A stretch of 64,000 bases of DNA from Salegentibacter sp. Its GTDB lineage: Bacteria; Bacteroidota; Bacteroidia; Flavobacteriales; Flavobacteriaceae. The stretch lies in NCBI GenBank assembly GCA_017795085.1, contig CP051246.1, positions 1,118,514 through 1,182,513 of the forward strand. Direction: 5' to 3'. The notes under the pieces are model-generated. The model was not told the origin of the DNA and did not search any database. It was given only the letters and a program-made list of their open reading frames with translations. Both the position numbers and the translations under genes were made by a program. This document shows positions 530 through 59,139 of this stretch, piece after piece (position 1 is the first letter of the stretch; each line of letters begins with the position of its first letter).

Positions 530-904
530 CTATTTAGCCGTTTTTCCTTCATTGGGTAGAAGTTTGGAAATATCTCTTTTGGTATGATTATGTATTGCCT
601 CACGTATAGCAACTTTTACTACGGTCTCATAATCGGTGCTTGTAATGTCAGCAGTATTCAGAATATCTTCCAAGGTTAATTTCCTTGGATCGTTATAACG
701 AGTGATCATTGTTTCGTAACTCATACCTAACGCAAATGGCATTCCAGTAGCATATTCACTGGAAACTTCTTTCATCGAGCGCACATCTCCCGTAGCAAAG
801 CGAGACTTAAGATTTCTCAGAGCCTCGCGCATAGTATGCGGGTTTACTCTTTTTTCAAACTTCGCTGAGTTTTTTTCTTCTGATTTATCTGTTTTCTTAG
901 CCAT
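530..904 (-). CDS. Hypothetical protein, 124 residues
   Basis: The frame opens MAKKTDKSEEKNSAKFEK, a lysine/glutamate-rich N-terminus likely to be disordered. About 100 residues of mixed helical character follow, including a segment SYETMITRYNDPRKLTLEDI. There are no cysteines, membrane segments or signal peptide, so it should be cytoplasmic. The family is not recognised. Its stop lies just before the frameshifted remnant at 334-527, and upstream (905-1110) is very AT-rich DNA that may hold its promoter. Coding quality looks real because charged and hydrophobic residues alternate sensibly over the whole length. Confidence 0.55.
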   Translation of the reverse strand: MAKKTDKSEEKNSAKFEKRVNPHTMREALRNLKSRFATGDVRSMKEVSSEYATGMPFALGMSYETMITRYNDPRKLTLEDILNTADITSTDYETVVKVAIREAIHNHTKRDISKLLPNEGKTAK

Positions 905-1114
905 AATAGTATTGACTTCTTAAAAATCAATCTAAGATGGCATTATGAAGTTGATAATCAATCAAATATCACATTATATCTAGTAAATATTAGAATTTAT
1001 GTGATATTTATTTTAATTATTAATATATTATTACTAATATTGTATGTGAAAATCATATTTATTTATAATATATAACAGATTATATCATAAATATATTCGA
1101 TTAAATAGGTGTTA

Positions 1115-1355
1115 ACAAAGAGTCTCGACCGCAAATTCCGACAATTTGTAATCAGAACGAGACGGTAGGTTAATGCCCGAGGTGATATTTTGTGTACATT
1201 CGTACCGCTATAGCACTAAGGGCTCTATCGTATTCCGTTTCTGATAGGCGTCGGAACCTTGCGGTACGGTTGATAGGGCCTGCTATAGTATTTGGTTCTA
1301 TATATACTAGAGAGACTCGTTTTCAATTCATCGATATGAAGACGAGTTTTTTATT
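1115..1355 (+). ncRNA. Candidate structured RNA with pseudoknot and intrinsic terminator
   Basis: After a very AT-rich leader, base composition changes abruptly near 1115 and the strand becomes dense in complementary segments. GTCTCG 1122-1127 pairs with CGAGAC 1158-1163 and encloses CAAATT 1132-1137 / AATTTG 1143-1148. CTATAGCA 1208-1215 pairs with TGCTATAG 1281-1288, stacked on 1221-1229 / 1272-1280 and enclosing TTCCG 1233-1237 / CGGAA 1252-1256. CGTACCGC 1201-1208 is complementary to GCGGTACG 1261-1268, which crosses the previous helix, so it is either a pseudoknot or an alternative pairing. An intrinsic terminator follows at 1315-1359. Together these suggest a roughly 240-nt RNA: a small RNA, a cis-regulator, or RNA left by a mobile element. 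It matches no family I recognise (not tmRNA, RNase P, 6S or SRP). Confidence 0.5.
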
Positions 1356-1359
1356 TTAT
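1315..1359 (+). terminator. Intrinsic terminator of the candidate RNA
   Basis: ACTCGTTTTCA (1315-1325) pairs over 11 bp (one G-T) with TGAAGACGAGT (1337-1347), followed at once by a T-rich tract TTTTTTATTTT. This is a textbook Rho-independent terminator on the + strand. Confidence 0.75.
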
Positions 1360-1372
1360 ATGGTCCTCATTT

Positions 1373-1427
1373 CCGCCATTCATGGCGGCAAGCCCCTCTT
1401 TAATGGCCCGTCGGCAGCCGAACGGCT
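1373..1427. repeat. Two perfect hairpins downstream of the terminator
   Basis: CCGCCAT 1373-1379 and ATGGCGG 1382-1388 form a 7-bp stem with a 2-nt gap. AGCCG 1416-1420 and CGGCT 1423-1427 form a second short stem. Neither has a T-run. They continue the structured character of the preceding RNA and might belong to a longer transcript. Confidence 0.4.
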
Positions 1428-1439
1428 ATTTCCAGTTAA

Positions 1440-1643
1440 ACCCAAGAAGCCTATCTAAGGTATTTCCTTCATAAGCTCCAACAAGGGAGGAGCACCGAAA
1501 TGACAACCTCTGAAGAACTATAGGAAATTTACAAAGTCCTTAAGATAGTTGCAAAAACTGGATGCACTGGCTTTTTCGGTCAGGCGTAGGACTTCAGTCC
1601 AGGTATAAAAAAGAAATTGTTTATGAAAAGAAATTTGAATTAG
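1440..1643 (+). pseudogene. Short frame interrupted by two amber codons
   Basis: From about 1440 a frame reads TQEAYLRYFLHKLQQGRSTE then ATG 1500 MTTSEEL, TAG 1521-1523, EIYKVLKIVAKTGCTGFFGQ A, TAG 1587-1589, DFSPGIKKKLF..., and stops at TAG 1641-1643. A GGAGGAG sequence lies just upstream of the ATG. The segments between the stops look protein-like and share one frame, so a decayed small gene is the simplest reading. Chance openness over about 65 codons cannot be excluded. No family is recognised. Confidence 0.3.
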
Positions 1644-1744
1644 TCTATAAGCAAAATCTCTTTCCCTTACTAAAGATTGGCGTCTAAGTGGGGAAGGCCT
1701 GGGCTTAATAAAACAATTGTTTCATTAAAATCACACGCAAAATT

Positions 1745-4700
1745 ATGAAAAATAATTACCAAAGCCCCACGTATATCGTGGCGGCTATAGTAATTGATCT
1801 GTTCCTGCTTTTCTCCATACAAGGAATAACAGCGGCCACGCCCAAACCCCTTCCTTATTTTCAGGATATCACCATAACAGGAACTATAACCGATAAAGAC
1901 GGTTTACCTGTTCCGGGAGCTACCGTTTCTATTAAAGATAGTAACAAGGGTACCCTTACCAATATGGAGGGGGACTACGAGCTAACCGCACCTGCAAATG
2001 CCGTTTTAATAGTTTCTTACCTCGGCTTTAAGAGTAGGGAAGTGGCTGTAAACAGCAGGGAGGAAATCAATATTGAGTTAGAAAAGGATGTTACCGCCTT
2101 GGGAGCCGTAGAAATTAATGCCGGGTATTACAAGGTCAAAGAGCGAGAACAAACGGGAAATATAAGCAGAGTAACCTCAGAGGGTATTGAGCTCCAGTCA
2201 ATTGTAAATCCTTTACAAGCCTTACAAGGAAGAATGGCTGGAGTAGAAATTGTGCAGCCGGGCGGAGTGCCAGGCATAGCACCTAGGATACAAATAAGAG
2301 GGCAAAATAGTTTACGTACTGGAAGTAACCTTCCTCTTTATATCATAGATGGAGTACCGGTCAATTCGAGTGCAATTACTGGTATAAGTAGTATGAACAG
2401 TTTAGGTATAGACCCGTTAAATACAATAAATCTATCTAATATAGAGAGTATAGAGGTCTTAAAAGATGCGGATGCCACGGCCATTTATGGTTCTCGTGGT
2501 GCCAATGGGGTCATTCTTATTACTACCAAAAAGGGAAAAGGCCTTGAACAGAAAACTGAAATTGAAGTACGTTTATATTCAGGTATAGGAGAAGTCTCTA
2601 ATAAAATGAAACTCCTAAATACTGAGCAATATTTAAATATACGGAAAACCGCCTTTGAAAATGATGGTGTTGAGCCAACAATGGATAATGCTGAAGATTT
2701 AACAATATGGGATCAAAATCGATATACGGATTGGCAAGAAGAATTTTTTGGAGGAACTACTTTGATTACCGATTTAAATGTTGCAGTTTCTGGAGGTAAC
2801 GCTACTACTTCTTTCCGTTTAGGAGGCTCTTATCATAAACAGGGGACAGTGTTTCCTGGAGACTTTAGCTACAATAAGGGAACCGTTGGACTTAACTTAA
2901 ATCATACGTCAGAAAACAACAAATTAGGAGTTAATCTTTCGGTAAATTATGGAGTAGATAATAATAACTTATTTAATGGGGGGAGTAACTTTGTAATGGA
3001 CGCATTATTTTTACCACCTAATGCTCCTTCAATATATAATGAAGATGGTAGTCTCAATTGGGAAAACAATTCCTGGGATAATCCTTTCGCCTTTCTGTAC
3101 AATAGTAGTACCTCAAAAGTAAATAATTTGGTGGTCAACCTTGGCTTGTCTTACCAATTGACAAAAGGTTTAACCCTTAAAACAAATATGGGGTATACTA
3201 ATCTTGACAGTGAACAAAAAACAATAACCTCAAAAGAATCTTACCGTCCTGACGATCGGGAAGATACTCCATTGGATTCAAGACATTCAAATACAAAAAG
3301 ACGATCGTGGATTATAGAACCACAAATTACTTATAGCAAGAATTTTGGCAATAGTAATTTAGACGCTCTTATAGGAGTTACTTTTCAGCAGAATGACGAT
3401 AATAGATTATTTCTACTTGGTAGTGGATATGCATCTGAGTCCTTAATTGGTAATTTAGGTGCTGCCGAAGAAGTTACCGTTCTCTCTAATACTGATACTA
3501 AATATAAATATAATGCCATATTTGGTCGTTTAGGTTATAACTGGAAGAGAAAATATTTTATTAACCTGACAGCGCGAAGAGATGGTTCATCACGGTTTGG
3601 TATCAATAAACGTTTTGCAAATTTTGGAGCTATAGGCGGTGCCTGGATATTTTCTGAAGCTTCTTTTTTTAAGGATAAAGTGTCTTTCCTGAGTTTCGGA
3701 AAGCTAAGGGGAAGTTATGGAACTACAGGAAGTGACCAGATAGGGGATTACCAGTATTTGGACGCCTATGAACCAACTCCGGGTCCGGGAGGGTTATACC
3801 CTACACAACTTACTAATCCCGATTATTCTTGGGAAGAAAATAAAAAGTTGGAAGCGGCTGTTGAACTTGGTTTTTTAAAAGATAGAATTAACCTTAATGT
3901 TAGCTGGTATCGTAACCGATCTTCTAATCAATTGGTAGGCTATCCACTTCCTGCAACGACAGGATTTGCAACTATTCAGGCTAATTTGCCGGCTATGGTA
4001 CAGAATACGGGATGGGAATTGGAATTATCTACATTAAACATTCAGTCTCAAACTTTTCGATGGCAAACTTTTCTCAATTTTACCCTTCCAAAAAACAAAC
4101 TTGTTAGCTTTCCTAATATAGAGCAAACCTCTTATGAAAATATGTATAAGGTAGGACATCCTTTGGACATTGATTTAAGATATGAGTATAATGGTATTGA
4201 TCCGGACACGGGTTTATATAACGTGGTTGATGTTAATGAGGATGGAAGATATGATTATGAAGATCGTGTTGTTATCAAGGATCGTGGAAGAAAATATTAT
4301 GGAGGGGTAAACAATACTATTACCTATAAAAATCTTGCAATTCAGTTCTTATGGGAGTTTGTGAAGGAAGAGGCTGGGAAGCCTTATTTTTCAAATCCCG
4401 GTACTAAGAGCAATCAACCTTATGAAGTGTTTGAAGCATTTCGGAATAATACAGATGATAAACGAATTCAGAATATTTCCCAATCTATTGAAGCATCAAG
4501 AGCATATTCCAGAGCCAGAACTACTGATTATTTCCTAAGTGATGCTTCATTTTTACGTTTAAAAACGCTCTCCGTTAACCATAACCTACCGAAAGAATTA
4601 ATCCAAAAATTAGGATTAAAAACGTGTAGTATCTTTTTGAATGCTCAAAATCTTTTAACAATAACCAATTTTATAGGATTAGATCCTCAATATACAGGCG

Positions 4701-4756
4701 GTACTGTAATTCCTCCTTTACGGACCATAACCTGTGGTTTACAGATTAATCTTTAA
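1745..4756 (+). CDS. SusC/RagA-family TonB-dependent outer-membrane transporter
   Basis: 1003 residues, normal for SusC proteins. A hydrophobic signal segment (about 10-32) is followed by a carboxypeptidase-like regulatory domain (about 42-115, with GTITDKDGLPVPGATVSIKD), a plug domain (about 125-245, with IRGQNSLRTGSNLPLYIIDG and DADATAIYGSRGANGVILI) and a large beta-barrel. The protein should form the barrel through which a substrate bound by the SusD partner enters the periplasm, driven by TonB. The next gene starts 11 bp downstream, so the two are one operon, continued by an M16 peptidase. That peptidase, and the absence of any glycoside hydrolase, suggests peptide rather than glycan uptake (inference). 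No sigma/anti-sigma pair lies beside it. Confidence 0.95.
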   Translation: MKNNYQSPTYIVAAIVIDLFLLFSIQGITAATPKPLPYFQDITITGTITDKDGLPVPGATVSIKDSNKGTLTNMEGDYELTAPANAVLIVSYLGFKSREVAVNSREEINIELEKDVTALGAVEINAGYYKVKEREQTGNISRVTSEGIELQSIVNPLQALQGRMAGVEIVQPGGVPGIAPRIQIRGQNSLRTGSNLPLYIIDGVPVNSSAITGISSMNSLGIDPLNTINLSNIESIEVLKDADATAIYGSRGANGVILITTKKGKGLEQKTEIEVRLYSGIGEVSNKMKLLNTEQYLNIRKTAFENDGVEPTMDNAEDLTIWDQNRYTDWQEEFFGGTTLITDLNVAVSGGNATTSFRLGGSYHKQGTVFPGDFSYNKGTVGLNLNHTSENNKLGVNLSVNYGVDNNNLFNGGSNFVMDALFLPPNAPSIYNEDGSLNWENNSWDNPFAFLYNSSTSKVNNLVVNLGLSYQLTKGLTLKTNMGYTNLDSEQKTITSKESYRPDDREDTPLDSRHSNTKRRSWIIEPQITYSKNFGNSNLDALIGVTFQQNDDNRLFLLGSGYASESLIGNLGAAEEVTVLSNTDTKYKYNAIFGRLGYNWKRKYFINLTARRDGSSRFGINKRFANFGAIGGAWIFSEASFFKDKVSFLSFGKLRGSYGTTGSDQIGDYQYLDAYEPTPGPGGLYPTQLTNPDYSWEENKKLEAAVELGFLKDRINLNVSWYRNRSSNQLVGYPLPATTGFATIQANLPAMVQNTGWELELSTLNIQSQTFRWQTFLNFTLPKNKLVSFPNIEQTSYENMYKVGHPLDIDLRYEYNGIDPDTGLYNVVDVNEDGRYDYEDRVVIKDRGRKYYGGVNNTITYKNLAIQFLWEFVKEEAGKPYFSNPGTKSNQPYEVFEAFRNNTDDKRIQNISQSIEASRAYSRARTTDYFLSDASFLRLKTLSVNHNLPKELIQKLGLKTCSIFLNAQNLLTITNFIGLDPQYTGGTVIPPLRTITCGLQINL

Positions 4757-4767
4757 AATAAAAAAGC

Positions 4768-6165
4768 ATGAAATTAATTGTAAAAATCAAATTTTTAATA
4801 ATGATACTCTACATACTACTAGTGGTATCATGTGAAGATTTTGTCGATGTGGAAGTTCCAAATCATAAAATTGTAAGCGAAGCAGTCTTTGAAAGTGATG
4901 AAACAGCGATAAACGCTATGACAGGGATTTATAATGAGTTGTTTAATGCTTCGTTTTCCGGTGGCTGGCAAAATAGTGTTACGGTTTTGGCAGGCTTGTC
5001 TGCTGATGTATTACAGCCAATAAATCCTGATGACTCGGCATTTGGTGAATTTTATCAAAATGAAATAATGCCTGCCAGTTCTCCAAACCTCAATATATGG
5101 TCCAGTGCATATAATATTATCTATATGACCAATGCTGTATTGGAAGGTATAGAACAATCCGATAATATTACAGAAGAAGTCGGAATTCGTTTGGAAGGGG
5201 AAGCCCGGTTTGTTCGAGCCTTTACTTACTTCCATTTGGTAAATATATACGGGGATGTTCCTTTGGTATTAGCTACAGACTATCGGAAAAATTCATTGGT
5301 TTCACAGGATACGGTAGAAGAAATAAATGTACAAGTTTTTGCTGATTTAGAAAAAGCTATGGACCTTTTAGGTATAGAATACTTGGAAGGAGAGCGTACT
5401 CATGTTAACCGACTTGTTGTAATGGCATTTTTAGCAAGGGTACACTTATATCAGCAAAATTGGGAACAGGCAGAAAGTCTAAGTAATCAAGTCATTTCCC
5501 ATACAGATACTTACGAAATTCTGAAAGATTTGAAGCAAGTTTTTCTAGCCAATAGTAGGGAAGCTATTTGGCAAATATCACCTATTGGAAGAGGGAATAT
5601 ATTGACAACTACTAATGAAGCCCCTGTGTTTATTGGAACTTCATATTCGTATATAAAGATAACAGAAGGATTTATGCAATCTATTCACCCGGAGGATAAG
5701 CGGCTCACAGACTGGATAGGTCATTTTACCAATGAAACACGAAATTTTCACTTTCCATATAAATACAAGGATAGATCTAGCCTAAATAATATTACTGAAT
5801 ATTCTATGGTACTTCGATTAGCAGAGCAATATTTAATACGGGCAGAAGCAAGAACCATGCAAGGAAATCTCACTGGTGCCATAGCAGATGTGGATGAAAT
5901 AAGAGATCGGGCCGGGGTCGACCTGATTACAGATACCAGTCCGGGAATCGATAAAGAAACCTTATTGAACCTAATCATGAAAGAAAGAAAATTAGAACTG
6001 TTTTCGGAGTGGGGGCACCGCTGGCTAGACTTAAAACGTACTGGGAAAGCTACTGAAATTTTAGGAATAAAAACATCGCTTTGGGAAGACACGGATGTTC
6101 TTTATCCAATACCCGAAGAAGAACGTGCAAAGAACCCTAATCTGGGACAAAACCACGGGTATTGA
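4768..6165 (+). CDS. SusD/RagB-family surface lipoprotein
   Basis: 465 residues with a signal peptide ending in the lipobox VVSC (Cys22), so an outer-membrane lipoprotein. The N-terminal half carries the helical TPR-like SusD fold (AINAMTGIYNELFNASF, GEARFVRAFTYFHLVNIYGD) and the C-terminus has the family signature EERKLELFSEWGHRWLDLKR-like stretch near residue 415. It caps the SusC barrel encoded 11 bp upstream and captures the ligand. The peptidase gene follows after 43 bp, in keeping with a three-gene operon. The ligand cannot be read from sequence. Confidence 0.93.
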   Translation: MKLIVKIKFLIMILYILLVVSCEDFVDVEVPNHKIVSEAVFESDETAINAMTGIYNELFNASFSGGWQNSVTVLAGLSADVLQPINPDDSAFGEFYQNEIMPASSPNLNIWSSAYNIIYMTNAVLEGIEQSDNITEEVGIRLEGEARFVRAFTYFHLVNIYGDVPLVLATDYRKNSLVSQDTVEEINVQVFADLEKAMDLLGIEYLEGERTHVNRLVVMAFLARVHLYQQNWEQAESLSNQVISHTDTYEILKDLKQVFLANSREAIWQISPIGRGNILTTTNEAPVFIGTSYSYIKITEGFMQSIHPEDKRLTDWIGHFTNETRNFHFPYKYKDRSSLNNITEYSMVLRLAEQYLIRAEARTMQGNLTGAIADVDEIRDRAGVDLITDTSPGIDKETLLNLIMKERKLELFSEWGHRWLDLKRTGKATEILGIKTSLWEDTDVLYPIPEEERAKNPNLGQNHGY

Positions 6166-6208: not shown

Positions 6209-9079
6209 ATGATGAGAAATTCGTTTTTGGTAATGTTTCTTTTGCTACAAAGCATAATGCCTGTTAATGGCCAGAGGAATGCCCCATATCTTACTGTTGA
6301 TACTTTACCTTTAGATCCCGAAGTTAGATATGGTAAGTTGGCCAATGGATTCACCTATTATATTCGGCGTAATAATATACCTGAAGGAGAGATTGAACTT
6401 CATATGGTCGTTAAAGCGGGATACTATCAGGAAGATAAAGACCAGAAAGAGTATGCACACTTATTGGAACATGTCGGAGCCAAAGCAACCAAGCACTTTC
6501 CTGATATACATTCCTACTTCCGTAGCTCAGGAAAATATAGTCATGCCAATACAGGTCAAAATTATACGGCCTATTATGTGAAAATACCATCCGGTGATAA
6601 AAAAGTATTACAGGAGGGGGTACTATCTGTCCGAGATCGGGCTAAGGACATTCTGATGGAACAATCTGTAATTGATGTGCAGCGAGGGGCAGTATTGGGA
6701 GAAATGAGAACAAGTGATCCATATAAAGATTGGTTGTCAAGAACAATTAAGAAACGTGTAGAGAAGAATACAGGATTTAGCTCATATACTCATGAAAAAT
6801 ATAAGAAAAGTATAGAGAATTTCAATCGTGAAGCATTTATACGCTTCTACAAGGATTGGTACCGTCCAGACCTACAAGCGGCCATTGTTGTTGGGGATAT
6901 CAACGTGGATAGTATGGAGATGCATATAAAACAGATATTCTCAGACCTAAAAAAACCTGTCCGTCCCAAAAACGCTCAAGCCAGAGTAGATGCCCAAACA
7001 ATAAACCTGAAAGGTGGGAACCAGTACTTTTCTGTTAAAGATACCAAGAGAGAGGATTTTAGAGTCTATATTATTTCCAAAAGACCTAATTATAAATATA
7101 GTCCAAGGAATAAATCAGATTATAGGAAGATGTTATTACAACAACTTTATAGGGAAATCATGACCCCAAGAGGGGAGTACATGATAGGGCAACGAAACTC
7201 CCCTATATCGAACTTTTCTGCTAAATACCGGGCGAATCAGATGGCAGGTGGCCAACTATGGGTCAATGAGGTCATTGTAAACTTTGACATGAATGATCCA
7301 AAACATATAAAAAAACGCTTTATTGATGCTTTAGTGACGAGAAAAAGGATGCACACAGGCTTTACAAAAAAAGAACTGACCGAAGCAAAAACAAAAGTAT
7401 TGAAAAGTTTTTCCGCAGATCGATATGAAAGTACTTCTGCTCTAGCTATTCGATACAAATATCATTTTACAAAAGGTCAAGCCGCTCCCAGTCCTAAGGA
7501 TGAAAAAAAGTTGATAATTCAACTTCTTGATGGGATTGACCTGAAAGTAATTCAGAAATTTGCACTTGATTTTGTTGACCTTGGTAAGAATACCGACTTT
7601 CTGTTCTTTAAAGGAAAGAACGTTACAATCCCTAGTTATGATTTAATCGAAAAATGGGTCTCCGACGTGAATGAGATGGAAGTGAGGCCTTATACGGCGG
7701 ATATGCAATCCATTACTTCTGCATCTCTAAAAAATATTACTGATATTCCCTTGAAAGAAAAAAATGTTATCAAGCATACATCAGAGAGTCTAATTGATGT
7801 TACTACTATCGAACTCAGGAATAATGTCAAAGTAATCCTAAAACCGACAGCACCAGGAGGTGAATTATTTACTAATAAAGTCTCACTATACGCCTACCGC
7901 CCTTTCTCCATGCCTTTTGAAAACCGGAACGATTTTCTAGCTGCAACTGTATCTGGCAAAGTGGTTAAACACGTAGGAGCAGGACCATTTAACACCTTTG
8001 AATTGGATCAATTTATGCGAGATAGGGGCATACAATTGAACTTTAATCAGACAAAAAGTGAACAAATAATTAATGCGCATTGCCAAGCCGATCATATCGA
8101 AGATTTTTTGAATCTTCTTTACTTATACATAGATAAGCCAAAAATTACTCCTGAAACTTTTAGAGATTGGAAAAACCATTACAAAAAGCAACTTAAATAT
8201 GGAAGAAGAACTTCTTCAGCTTTCTTTCGGGATAGTATTGAAGCATTGAGATTCCCTGATATTCCACGTATGGATCTTGAGGATGTAAACCAACTGAAGA
8301 AGGAAAAGGTGCATGATGTATTTAACCAGTTATTTTCTAATTTTAATGGATATACCTTTATCCTAACCGGTGATTTTGATAAAGACCAACTTACACCGAT
8401 ATTGGTAAAGTATTTGTCCGCATTTCCTAAGGGAGAACTTCAGTCATCAGATACTACAAATATTCCAATATTTCCACTTAAAAAGATGAATGAAACTATT
8501 TATTTAGATAACCTTAATCAAGCTTTAGTGCGTTTATCTTTCCCTTTGAAAGCTCCAACAGACATAAAAACCAAAATTATTCTTCGTTTATTAGCCAAGG
8601 CTTTACATACTAGAATTAGAGATCGTTTACGTGAAGGTTGTTATGCCCCAGGTGCGAATGGCCATTTTGTGGATACCCAAAAAGGTTTGTATGAGTTTAT
8701 TATTTCATTTGATAGTGAATTGAGTAATTTGGAGAATATGATTCGGTACGCAAAAGAAGAATTTCAGTCGTTGCGAGAAAATGGAATGGATAAGCAATGG
8801 TTTGAAAAGACAGTAGTTACGGAAGAAGAAACCTTTGGAAAACGTATTGAATACTTTAATTATGCGTCTAATAATTTTTGGCCAGGTTACCTGAAAGAAA
8901 AGTTGAATAATAATGAAGAACTCATTTTGGAAGTCTTACAGTACAAAACACTCCTGGAACATTTTGTTAGCCTAGAAGATGTAAATGCTGTGGCCAAGAA
9001 ATATTTAAGTGAGGAGTTTTATCAAAGGTTTATTTGCCTTCCCAAAGGACAGGAAGAGTTAACTCGGGGATTGCCATAA
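6209..9079 (+). CDS. M16-family zinc metallopeptidase, exported
   Basis: 956 residues with an N-terminal signal peptide (cleavage likely after about residue 21, NGQ). The inverted zinc motif HLLEH (His84, Glu87, His88) is intact and the third ligand lies in VLGEMR (Glu165). The length fits a full double-unit M16 clamshell with an active N-terminal half and an inactive C-terminal half. The family cuts small unstructured peptides inside a closed chamber. Encoded directly after susC/susD, it probably trims imported peptides in the periplasm or prepares them at the surface. A palindromic terminator follows at 9108-9141. The substrate is unknown; the convergent DUF6520 peptide is one candidate (inference). 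Confidence 0.92.
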   Translation: MMRNSFLVMFLLLQSIMPVNGQRNAPYLTVDTLPLDPEVRYGKLANGFTYYIRRNNIPEGEIELHMVVKAGYYQEDKDQKEYAHLLEHVGAKATKHFPDIHSYFRSSGKYSHANTGQNYTAYYVKIPSGDKKVLQEGVLSVRDRAKDILMEQSVIDVQRGAVLGEMRTSDPYKDWLSRTIKKRVEKNTGFSSYTHEKYKKSIENFNREAFIRFYKDWYRPDLQAAIVVGDINVDSMEMHIKQIFSDLKKPVRPKNAQARVDAQTINLKGGNQYFSVKDTKREDFRVYIISKRPNYKYSPRNKSDYRKMLLQQLYREIMTPRGEYMIGQRNSPISNFSAKYRANQMAGGQLWVNEVIVNFDMNDPKHIKKRFIDALVTRKRMHTGFTKKELTEAKTKVLKSFSADRYESTSALAIRYKYHFTKGQAAPSPKDEKKLIIQLLDGIDLKVIQKFALDFVDLGKNTDFLFFKGKNVTIPSYDLIEKWVSDVNEMEVRPYTADMQSITSASLKNITDIPLKEKNVIKHTSESLIDVTTIELRNNVKVILKPTAPGGELFTNKVSLYAYRPFSMPFENRNDFLAATVSGKVVKHVGAGPFNTFELDQFMRDRGIQLNFNQTKSEQIINAHCQADHIEDFLNLLYLYIDKPKITPETFRDWKNHYKKQLKYGRRTSSAFFRDSIEALRFPDIPRMDLEDVNQLKKEKVHDVFNQLFSNFNGYTFILTGDFDKDQLTPILVKYLSAFPKGELQSSDTTNIPIFPLKKMNETIYLDNLNQALVRLSFPLKAPTDIKTKIILRLLAKALHTRIRDRLREGCYAPGANGHFVDTQKGLYEFIISFDSELSNLENMIRYAKEEFQSLRENGMDKQWFEKTVVTEEETFGKRIEYFNYASNNFWPGYLKEKLNNNEELILEVLQYKTLLEHFVSLEDVNAVAKKYLSEEFYQRFICLPKGQEELTRGLP

Positions 9080-58692: not shown

Positions 58693-58815
58693 TTGATTTG
58701 TATTAAGGTTAATAACTGATATTAACTATTTACAAAACAAAACTGCAGGGGATATGATTAGAATAGAAGAACTATCCAAAGCAATAACTCCCGAAAGCTT
58801 TGTTTTTATGATATT

Positions 58816-58985
58816 ACGGCAGGTCTTCTGACTTATCCCTCTTTTTAATCCTTCCCATCTTACGGACAGTGGATTATTAAAAAGATTTTTCTCGAAAATA
58901 CGAGAGAGACTTACAGCAGCGGGAACTGTTCAGGATTTACACCTGATTCCCTTTTAATACAATTCTATATGAAATCGTAACCGAA
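58816..58985 (-). promoter_or_regulatory. Cobalamin (B12) riboswitch
   Basis: Reading the reverse strand, the conserved elements appear in order: GGGAATCAGGTGTAAATCCT, GAACAGTTCCCGCTGCTGTA, CCACTG (58867-58872 region, B12 box), and AGTCAGAAGACCTGCC at the 3' end (58817-58832). This is the classical cobalamin aptamer. It lies about 124 nt upstream of the lipoprotein start and would lower expression when cobalamin is plentiful. The expression platform (58693-58815) was not folded. Confidence 0.95.
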
Positions 58986-59139
58986 AATCATGGCAATATT
59001 AGGGTATTTTATTGAGGTATGGAAATTTTATATAAAGGCATAATCCTGAAGGAATACTTTTAGGCTTATTTTTACTCGATAATCGAGATTTATCCCGATA
59101 ACTATCCGGGAGCTCTGAGGCTTGACCCGAAGTTGTTTA

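Follow-up and report, generated by a model that had tools for sequence, protein, structure and literature searches.

A structured, probably cis-acting leader RNA upstream of a SusC-SusD-M16 peptidase operon in Salegentibacter and its probable place in a Bacteroidota leader family

Ahead of a susC-like gene of Salegentibacter sp. (contig CP051246.1 of assembly GCA_017795085.1), positions 1115 to 1359 of the window, that is, of the whole 64,000-nt stretch analysed here, look like a structured RNA ending in an intrinsic terminator. The question is whether this is a small RNA in its own right or a control element of the genes behind it. In our analysis the RNA is real and conserved, and probably a cis-acting leader. 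The main reading, to which we give a probability of about 0.68, is that it forms the 5' leader of a SusC-SusD-M16 operon and is a divergent member of a Bacteroidota leader family that attenuates transcription in cis. The locus comprises the following elements.

530 to 904, minus strand: divergent ORF of 124 aa, 85% identical in G002
964 to 1009, no strand: candidate operator, an 11-bp perfect inverted repeat (964-974/999-1009) read from the sequence
1092 to 1099, plus strand: promoter-like TATATTCG, found by eye
1651 to 1743, plus strand: C-block, a conserved block ahead of the susC start codon, found by sequence comparison
1745 to 4756, plus strand: susC-like TonB-dependent transporter (Plug, E 2e-19; TonB_dep_Rec_b-barrel, E 4e-14)
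4768 to 6165, plus strand: susD-like lipoprotein (SusD_RagB, E 4e-30)
6209 to 9079, plus strand: M16 peptidase (PF00675, E 1e-12; PF05193, E 2e-24)

The RNA lies in the position typical of the family, with susC at 1745 on the plus strand downstream and the divergent ORF 530-904 on the minus strand upstream; as the initial annotation had stated, susC starts about 390 nt past the hairpin. In all three copies of the window type, the next same-strand operon is SusC-SusD-M16 peptidase. In most other copies a small HTH gene takes the place of the divergent ORF, whose product has no Pfam match and whose structure model (pLDDT 55) is too poor for use. The promoter-like TATATTCG resembles the Bacteroidota -7 element TAnnTTTG, and many other copies carry TATATTTG at the same place, as judged by eye. 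A scan for sigma-70-type promoters, which are not expected for Bacteroidota, gave no excess. Elsewhere in the window, a cobalamin riboswitch (RF00174, 102.8 bits) is found at 58801-58999 on the minus strand.

The structure claimed for this RNA is real: the predicted fold of region 1110-1355 has -83.9 kcal/mol (z -5.09), and 0 of 200 shuffles are as stable. A DNA search found a paralogue in the same genome with 71% identity, and in 99 genomes searched (98 relatives and the own genome) the sister species G002 is the sole relative with a window-type copy, at 94% identity. Of the 76 pairs in the consensus structure of the three copies, 11 are changed on both sides with pairing kept; this is matched by 0 of 500 shuffles and slid versions give only 0 to 2, and with two of the three sequences 94% alike it is in effect one comparison. 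The elements of the RNA are listed below.

1122-1127 with 1158-1163, plus strand: P1, GUCUCG with CGAGAC, counterpart of UCUCG/CGAGA of the family
1128 to 1265, plus strand: main split helix V1 and H3, with five double compensatory changes and an in-register match to the family model R2 at 1128-1266
1164 to 1229, plus strand: inner arms 1164-1168/1225-1229 and 1175-1178/1220-1223, proposed counterpart of H5/H6, assigned by eye
1220 to 1281, plus strand: helix 1220-1229/1272-1281, proposed by eye as counterpart of the family stem H7, with no U-tract after it
1312 to 1358, plus strand: terminator hairpin 1312-1325/1337-1350 and T-rich tail, conserved in three copies
1336 to 1458, plus strand: small ORF of 40 aa that begins within the 3' arm of the terminator and is open in 3 of 3 copies

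V1/H3 (1128-1142/1250-1265) is the best-supported helix of the RNA. Its five double changes separate the window from the 71%-identical paralogue, two of them in V1 (1128-1134/1259-1265) and three in H3 (1136-1142/1250-1256). The initial annotation was right about part of the helices but overlooked this main one, which uses bases also claimed by the hairpin domain 1122-1163 and by the crossing helix 1201-1208/1261-1268, two elements that it had proposed. The stem of that hairpin domain, 1122-1127/1158-1163, is unchanged in all three copies. The crossing pairing does exist, with 7 of its 8 pairs kept in all three copies; one pair is changed on both sides and two on one side. As for the long helix described before, the inner part (1220-1229/1272-1281) keeps 9 of 10 pairs, with one single-side change and no double change, but the outer part (1208-1215/1281-1288) is not among the 60 helices of a list that required pairing in all three copies. 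Moreover, the sharp boundary ascribed to the RNA does not hold at the 3' side, where the sequence is conserved up to the susC start codon in the three copies. The terminator was correctly seen: hairpin 1312-1325/1337-1350 has 14 of 14 pairs in each of the three copies, with a T-rich run behind it, and is conserved without covariation. An automatic terminator scan of 900-1800 reported none, with a loop limit of 8 that is below the loop of hairpin 1312-1350. In addition, GAGACUC of the terminator (1312-1318) can alternatively pair with GAGUCUC (1120-1126), which belongs to a strand of P1.

No known RNA family had been recognised in this sequence at first sight, and Rfam agrees: the window has no match for it at the gathering score, and none in 1000-1760 is plausible at E up to 10. 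The relatives of the RNA have no relevant match at E up to 1, and at E up to 10 only tRNAs and chance matches are returned. A known riboswitch or sRNA is ruled out on this basis. A genus search with the block ahead of susC yielded 27 loci in 10 of 15 genomes, six of them in the own genome, and all 27 encode SusC (990-1013 aa), SusD (461-472 aa) and, as the third ORF, a protein matching Pfam M16. Of the 27 loci, 22 carry a family leader RNA recognisable by motif or model: 17 belong to type I, 3 to the window type and 2 (L060 and L103) were found with R1, the window-type model. In the other five (G014a, G007b, G002c, G009c and own4) no leader RNA was recognised. Beyond the three window-type copies, R1 weakly finds leaders ahead of two SusC-SusD-M16 operons, in the own genome and in G009, and also one leader in G013.

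The family extends far beyond the genus. When 395 Bacteroidia genomes were searched with model R2, built from the 17 type-I copies, 65 of them had the family (E up to 0.001). Named genomes were also scanned for the pattern, with at least 80 loci as the outcome; among the matches listed, 34 are family copies by motif, all of them Bacteroidota by record title, and for the other 46 R2 gives nothing better than E 0.17. The listed copies come from Flavobacterium, Maribacter, Mesonia, Salegentibacter, Gelidibacter, Zunongwangia, Chryseobacterium and Echinicola, from a Chitinophagaceae genome and from others. Together the class search and the pattern-scan copies rule out a family confined to the genus. 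The leader RNAs appear to be a large, apparently uncatalogued Bacteroidota family without an Rfam match.

The family anatomy consists of a long interrupted hairpin (V1, H3, H4, H5 and H6) with a crossing stem P1, and then a 3' arm followed by a U-tract. We aligned 83 copies (78 distinct) to R2, in an alignment that is fitted to the structure and drawn from sources chosen for carrying a copy: pairing holds in 97.9% of cells, and double changes occur in 18 of 25 pairs (0 of 500 shuffles). The covariation score of 0.451 compares with 0.163 for shuffled alignments and at most 0.080 for slid ones. Two helices were also examined independently of the alignment, by pairing each arm with its own or with swapped partners in the 42 of 61 sequences that could be parsed (19 left out). 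Of 29 distinct V1 pairs, 28 form at least 5 contiguous bp with the own partner, as do 70 of 802 when partners are swapped; for H4 the figures are 32 of 32 and 361 of 962. Compensatory change in the homologues, which the initial annotation had proposed as a check, is present in the window type as well as in the wider family.

A U-tract, counted as at least 5 T in a 7-base window, stands just past the 3' arm in 83 of 83 copies, compared with 241 of 1590 control positions. In 68 of 83 copies this 3' arm pairs with the region of the H6 3' arm over at least 8 contiguous bases, which should make hairpin H6 and stem H7 mutually exclusive. Own and swapped partners of H7 differ modestly because both arms are conserved (mean 8.27 against 7.54; at least 6 in 74 of 77 against 5174 of 5656). 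In copy L279 all three partners are changed together, as seen by eye. H7 has the form of an intrinsic terminator, and we infer that transcription ends there. A second conserved block, B, lies in the stretch from the RNA to susC in L056, L054, L057, L060 and L113; by eye it could form two consecutive pseudoknots, and in L113 it looks tandemly duplicated.

Is the RNA of the window a member of this family? With default filters R2 does not report it at E up to 10, and with filters off, over 1101 bases, the best match is 1128-1266, in register, at E 0.018. In the reverse direction R1 matches both type-II sources (E 0.0003-0.0004) and 4 of the 7 type-I sources given (E 0.0014-0.0019), the two type-I alignments inspected being in register, while 3 of the 7 type-I sources and all three of type III go undetected. 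In view of these misses, membership is argued from weak reciprocal matches together with the architecture. P1, V1 and H3 are common to the window RNA and the family, as are the intervening CC and the arm order, and the split covarying V1/H3 helix is accompanied by P1 UCUCG...CGAGA in the window as well. The window RNA differs in the defining point of the family, an H7 stem with a U-tract whose 5' arm is common to H6: its H7 counterpart 1220-1229/1272-1281 is without a U-tract, which is found instead on the separate hairpin 1312-1350. As judged from sequence, it appears to be a divergent member of the leader-RNA family.

Gene context was counted for 70 copies, 13 of the 83 having flanks too short for use. 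Looking up to 900 nt downstream, 64 of them have a first ORF of the same orientation, 2 one of the opposite orientation and 4 none. On the upstream side, the closest ORF is divergent in 55 copies and shares the leader's strand in 14. The median distance from leader to next ORF is 322 nt, and in several distant members it is 44-60 nt. A Pfam scan of 28 of the 55 divergent ORFs found 21 Cro/C1-type HTH proteins (E up to 0.01), one of Crp type and six that are neither. The downstream genes encode SusC-SusD with a peptidase, an ECF sigma factor with dCas12f, or varied small proteins (names beyond Pfam were assigned by eye), and they are heterogeneous in the distant members. In L158, L203 and L208 an uncharacterised protein of 110-125 aa follows the leader RNA in place of susC, and the two tested have no Pfam match. 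The palindrome beside the promoter varies from locus to locus (L056, L097, L098, L104, L106 and L110, by eye), as expected for private operators. Upstream of several operons (L007, 8326-15501; L103; L109) we noticed, by eye only, defence-like genes for a TIR-like nucleotide-binding protein, an SMC/OLD-like ATPase and a PLD-like helicase.

One leader copy of the own genome stands ahead of genes for an ECF sigma factor and a protein of 366 aa, which match RpoE of PDB 9n9q (E 7e-86) and nuclease-deactivated Cas12f of PDB 9n9c (E 9e-174), respectively. Repeated units follow downstream of dcas12f, each with a conserved scaffold and then a variable stretch, which from its sequence we take to be the guide. 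The scaffold pattern matches 13 of 15 genus genomes, the single match in G012 being chance-like, and units carry stretches that match the leader RNA arm. The leader RNA itself was rejected as the dCas12f guide, since the guide scaffolds lie downstream of dcas12f and differ in sequence. When the sigma-dCas12f-guide region was searched as DNA against the whole genome, the matches comprised a second locus, a remnant and leader copies, and no C-block at E up to 10. The second locus (G000:C1:823227-825196) has no R2 match upstream; the remnant, a dcas12f C-terminal part with one guide unit (4140146-4140464), lies about 5 kb from the own5 leader.

We then compared guides with leaders. Among 60 scaffold matches, 4 without a recognised end were left out (L334, L348, L357 and L376, of which L348 has an arm-like stretch), and the 56 readable guides comprise 53 from the genus and 3 from outside. 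Regular expressions assigned 36 of the 56 to the H6/H7 arm, 12 to the block before susC, 4 to the stretch just upstream of that block, 2 to block B and 2 to neither. For matching, 8 guides with no leader from the same genome were set aside. Of the remaining 48 guides, 22 match a leader of the same genome at 12 or more of their first 14 bases. On the other strand 1 of 48 does so, in the coding DNA of susC 0 of 48, and among 240 shuffled guides 4. All the matched leader sites lie within the H6/H7 arm or one of the blocks B and C. Leaders with a matching guide are own6 and leaders of eight other genus genomes, six of these at the RNA arm. One guide of G014 matches block B at 13/14, the C-block is matched by guides in G004 and G007, and G007 has both a variant arm GGCGTGTCATCC (in G007d) and a guide with the same variant (13/14). 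Leader own5 carries the same variant arm GGCGTGTCATCC, with no matching guide in the own genome. The window's own leader likewise has no own-genome guide at 12/14 or better (best 10), its C-block has no guide matching at 12/14, and the two C-block-like guides of the own genome reach only 10/14 in any C-block. Outside the genus, guides of G076 and G177 reach 10 or 11 of 12 in each of the seven leader copies examined, and the best guide match of G742 is 11/14.

In the class sample, where the RNA and dCas12f searches of 395 genomes each are taken as the same draw, 6 genomes have a dCas12f match and 4 of them also the RNA, against 61 of 389 without dCas12f, an association small in numbers (Fisher p 0.008). 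As many as 61 of the 65 RNA-positive genomes have no dCas12f match, and 2 of the 6 dCas12f genomes have no RNA match. Since most RNA-bearing genomes are without a dCas12f match, guide targeting cannot be the general function of the family; with the RNA much more frequent than dCas12f, it looks like an addition rather than the basic role.

The main reading would work as follows. An upstream promoter, usually facing a divergent HTH gene, would drive transcription of the leader, and transcripts would end at the leader's end unless the hairpin state wins, which amounts to attenuation in cis. Hairpin H6 and terminator stem H7 would be alternative states through their common arm, presumably switched by some signal. 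In the window subtype a separate hairpin would serve as terminator, its 5' part being able to pair with the P1 strand instead, and the GAGACUC/GAGUCUC exchange would be the same kind of switch using other bases. In genomes with dCas12f-sigmaE, guide RNAs may address the DNA of the H7 5' arm. In the original report of that system, transcription is said to start at a fixed distance downstream of the guide site, and by this rule the start would fall within the leader, beyond the 5' arm of H7; such a transcript, lacking that arm, could run on into the operon.

A more far-reaching proposal, which we regard as possible though doubtful, is that the leader is a gate for RNA-guided transcription, with one guide set addressing the same conserved arm in many paralogous operons. 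A start inside the leader would delete the 5' arm of the terminator and let RNA polymerase through, while the regulator-controlled upstream promoter would remake the terminator and the complementary hairpin arm may sequester guides. The divergent regulator of each operon would then decide which paralogue answers the common guide.

The choice between small RNA and cis-element, left open by the initial annotation, falls in favour of the cis-element, and the mutually exclusive foldings it suggested would fit the family anatomy. A trans-acting small RNA of about 200-250 nt, made under the upstream regulator, stopped at the U-tract and, for example, sequestering guides with the 5' arms of H5/H6, seems unlikely. 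The U-tract after all 83 copies would suit it, as would the median of 322 nt to the next ORF and the complementarity in sequence of the H5/H6 5' arms to the target arm and hence to guides. However, 64 of 70 copies have their next gene on the same strand, at a distance of only 44-60 nt in several distant members, and the majority of RNA-bearing genomes have no dCas12f match. The persistence of the family where no dCas12f is found also speaks against a DNA-level element, in which a long imperfect palindrome would be read as double-stranded DNA by a regulator or by dCas12f and the RNA fold would have no role. Such an element would explain why the H6/H7 arm is the guide target in genomes with the system and why the long hairpin is roughly palindromic; yet stems that covary and carry conserved loops, together with a crossing stem and an arm common to the U-tract stem, are typical of RNA, and we consider it very unlikely.

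Leader-peptide attenuation, in which translation of the 40-aa ORF 1336-1458 or of the MKT-start ORFs of relatives controls the leader, is hardly plausible. Small ORFs starting with MKT do occur 3' of the leader RNA. The 40-aa kind is open in all three window-type copies, with many second-half substitutions synonymous (compared by eye in the three copies), and a second kind, ending in CAPE, is present in five others (L060, L055, L101, L103 and L109). Nevertheless, ORF 1336-1458 begins within the terminator and so would not be translated before termination; among 12 leaders searched, own5 and own6 (type I), own4 and G009c have no MKT-start ORF; and no convincing relative of the peptide was found beyond the own genome in 299 genomes of the bacterial family (best E 0.03, taken as chance). 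Attenuation in cis by the leader RNA itself stays our preferred reading.

What is new here is an RNA family that seems to be uncatalogued; it occurs across the class Bacteroidia, covaries strongly and has a consistent gene context. The overlap of its terminator arm with natural dCas12f-sigmaE guides was unexpected, and the leaders offer natural, testable targets for RNA-guided transcription by dCas12f-sigmaE, inside a predicted terminator. The family could also explain part of the choice that Bacteroidota make among many similar SusCD operons. In the accessible part of the literature, with preprints outside its scope, we found no paper on the leader RNA or on natural dCas12f-sigmaE targets, and a description elsewhere is possible.

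Several known systems resemble this family in part. The processive antitermination RNAs put and EAR are promoter-proximal structured leaders that act in cis on a long operon, and the leader family shares this layout; in contrast, it matches no Rfam model, and its role would be control at the leader's own end. The Flavo-1 RNA motif is likewise a widespread structured RNA of flavobacteria according to the accessible part of its description (PMC9723704), and it gave no match in the Rfam searches of the window RNA and its relatives. As far as that part of the description goes, Flavo-1 matches lie in sense or antisense of transcribed regions indistinctly (PMC9723704), whereas the leader family has a consistent orientation. 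Leaders of the transcription-attenuation or riboswitch kind share with it the 5' position on an operon and two exclusive stems, one with a U-tract. Unlike them, the present family has no ligand known and no Rfam match, it usually faces a divergent HTH gene, its downstream genes are heterogeneous, and its terminator arm is a guide target in some genomes. With the dCas12f-sigmaE system (PDB 9n9c and 9n9q) the link is direct: close homologues are encoded in the own genome, with guide units behind dcas12f, one of these operons has a leader copy in front of it, and leaders are guide targets. The leader differs from the guide RNA of that system in being target and operon leader, and its family occurs in many genomes without a dCas12f match.
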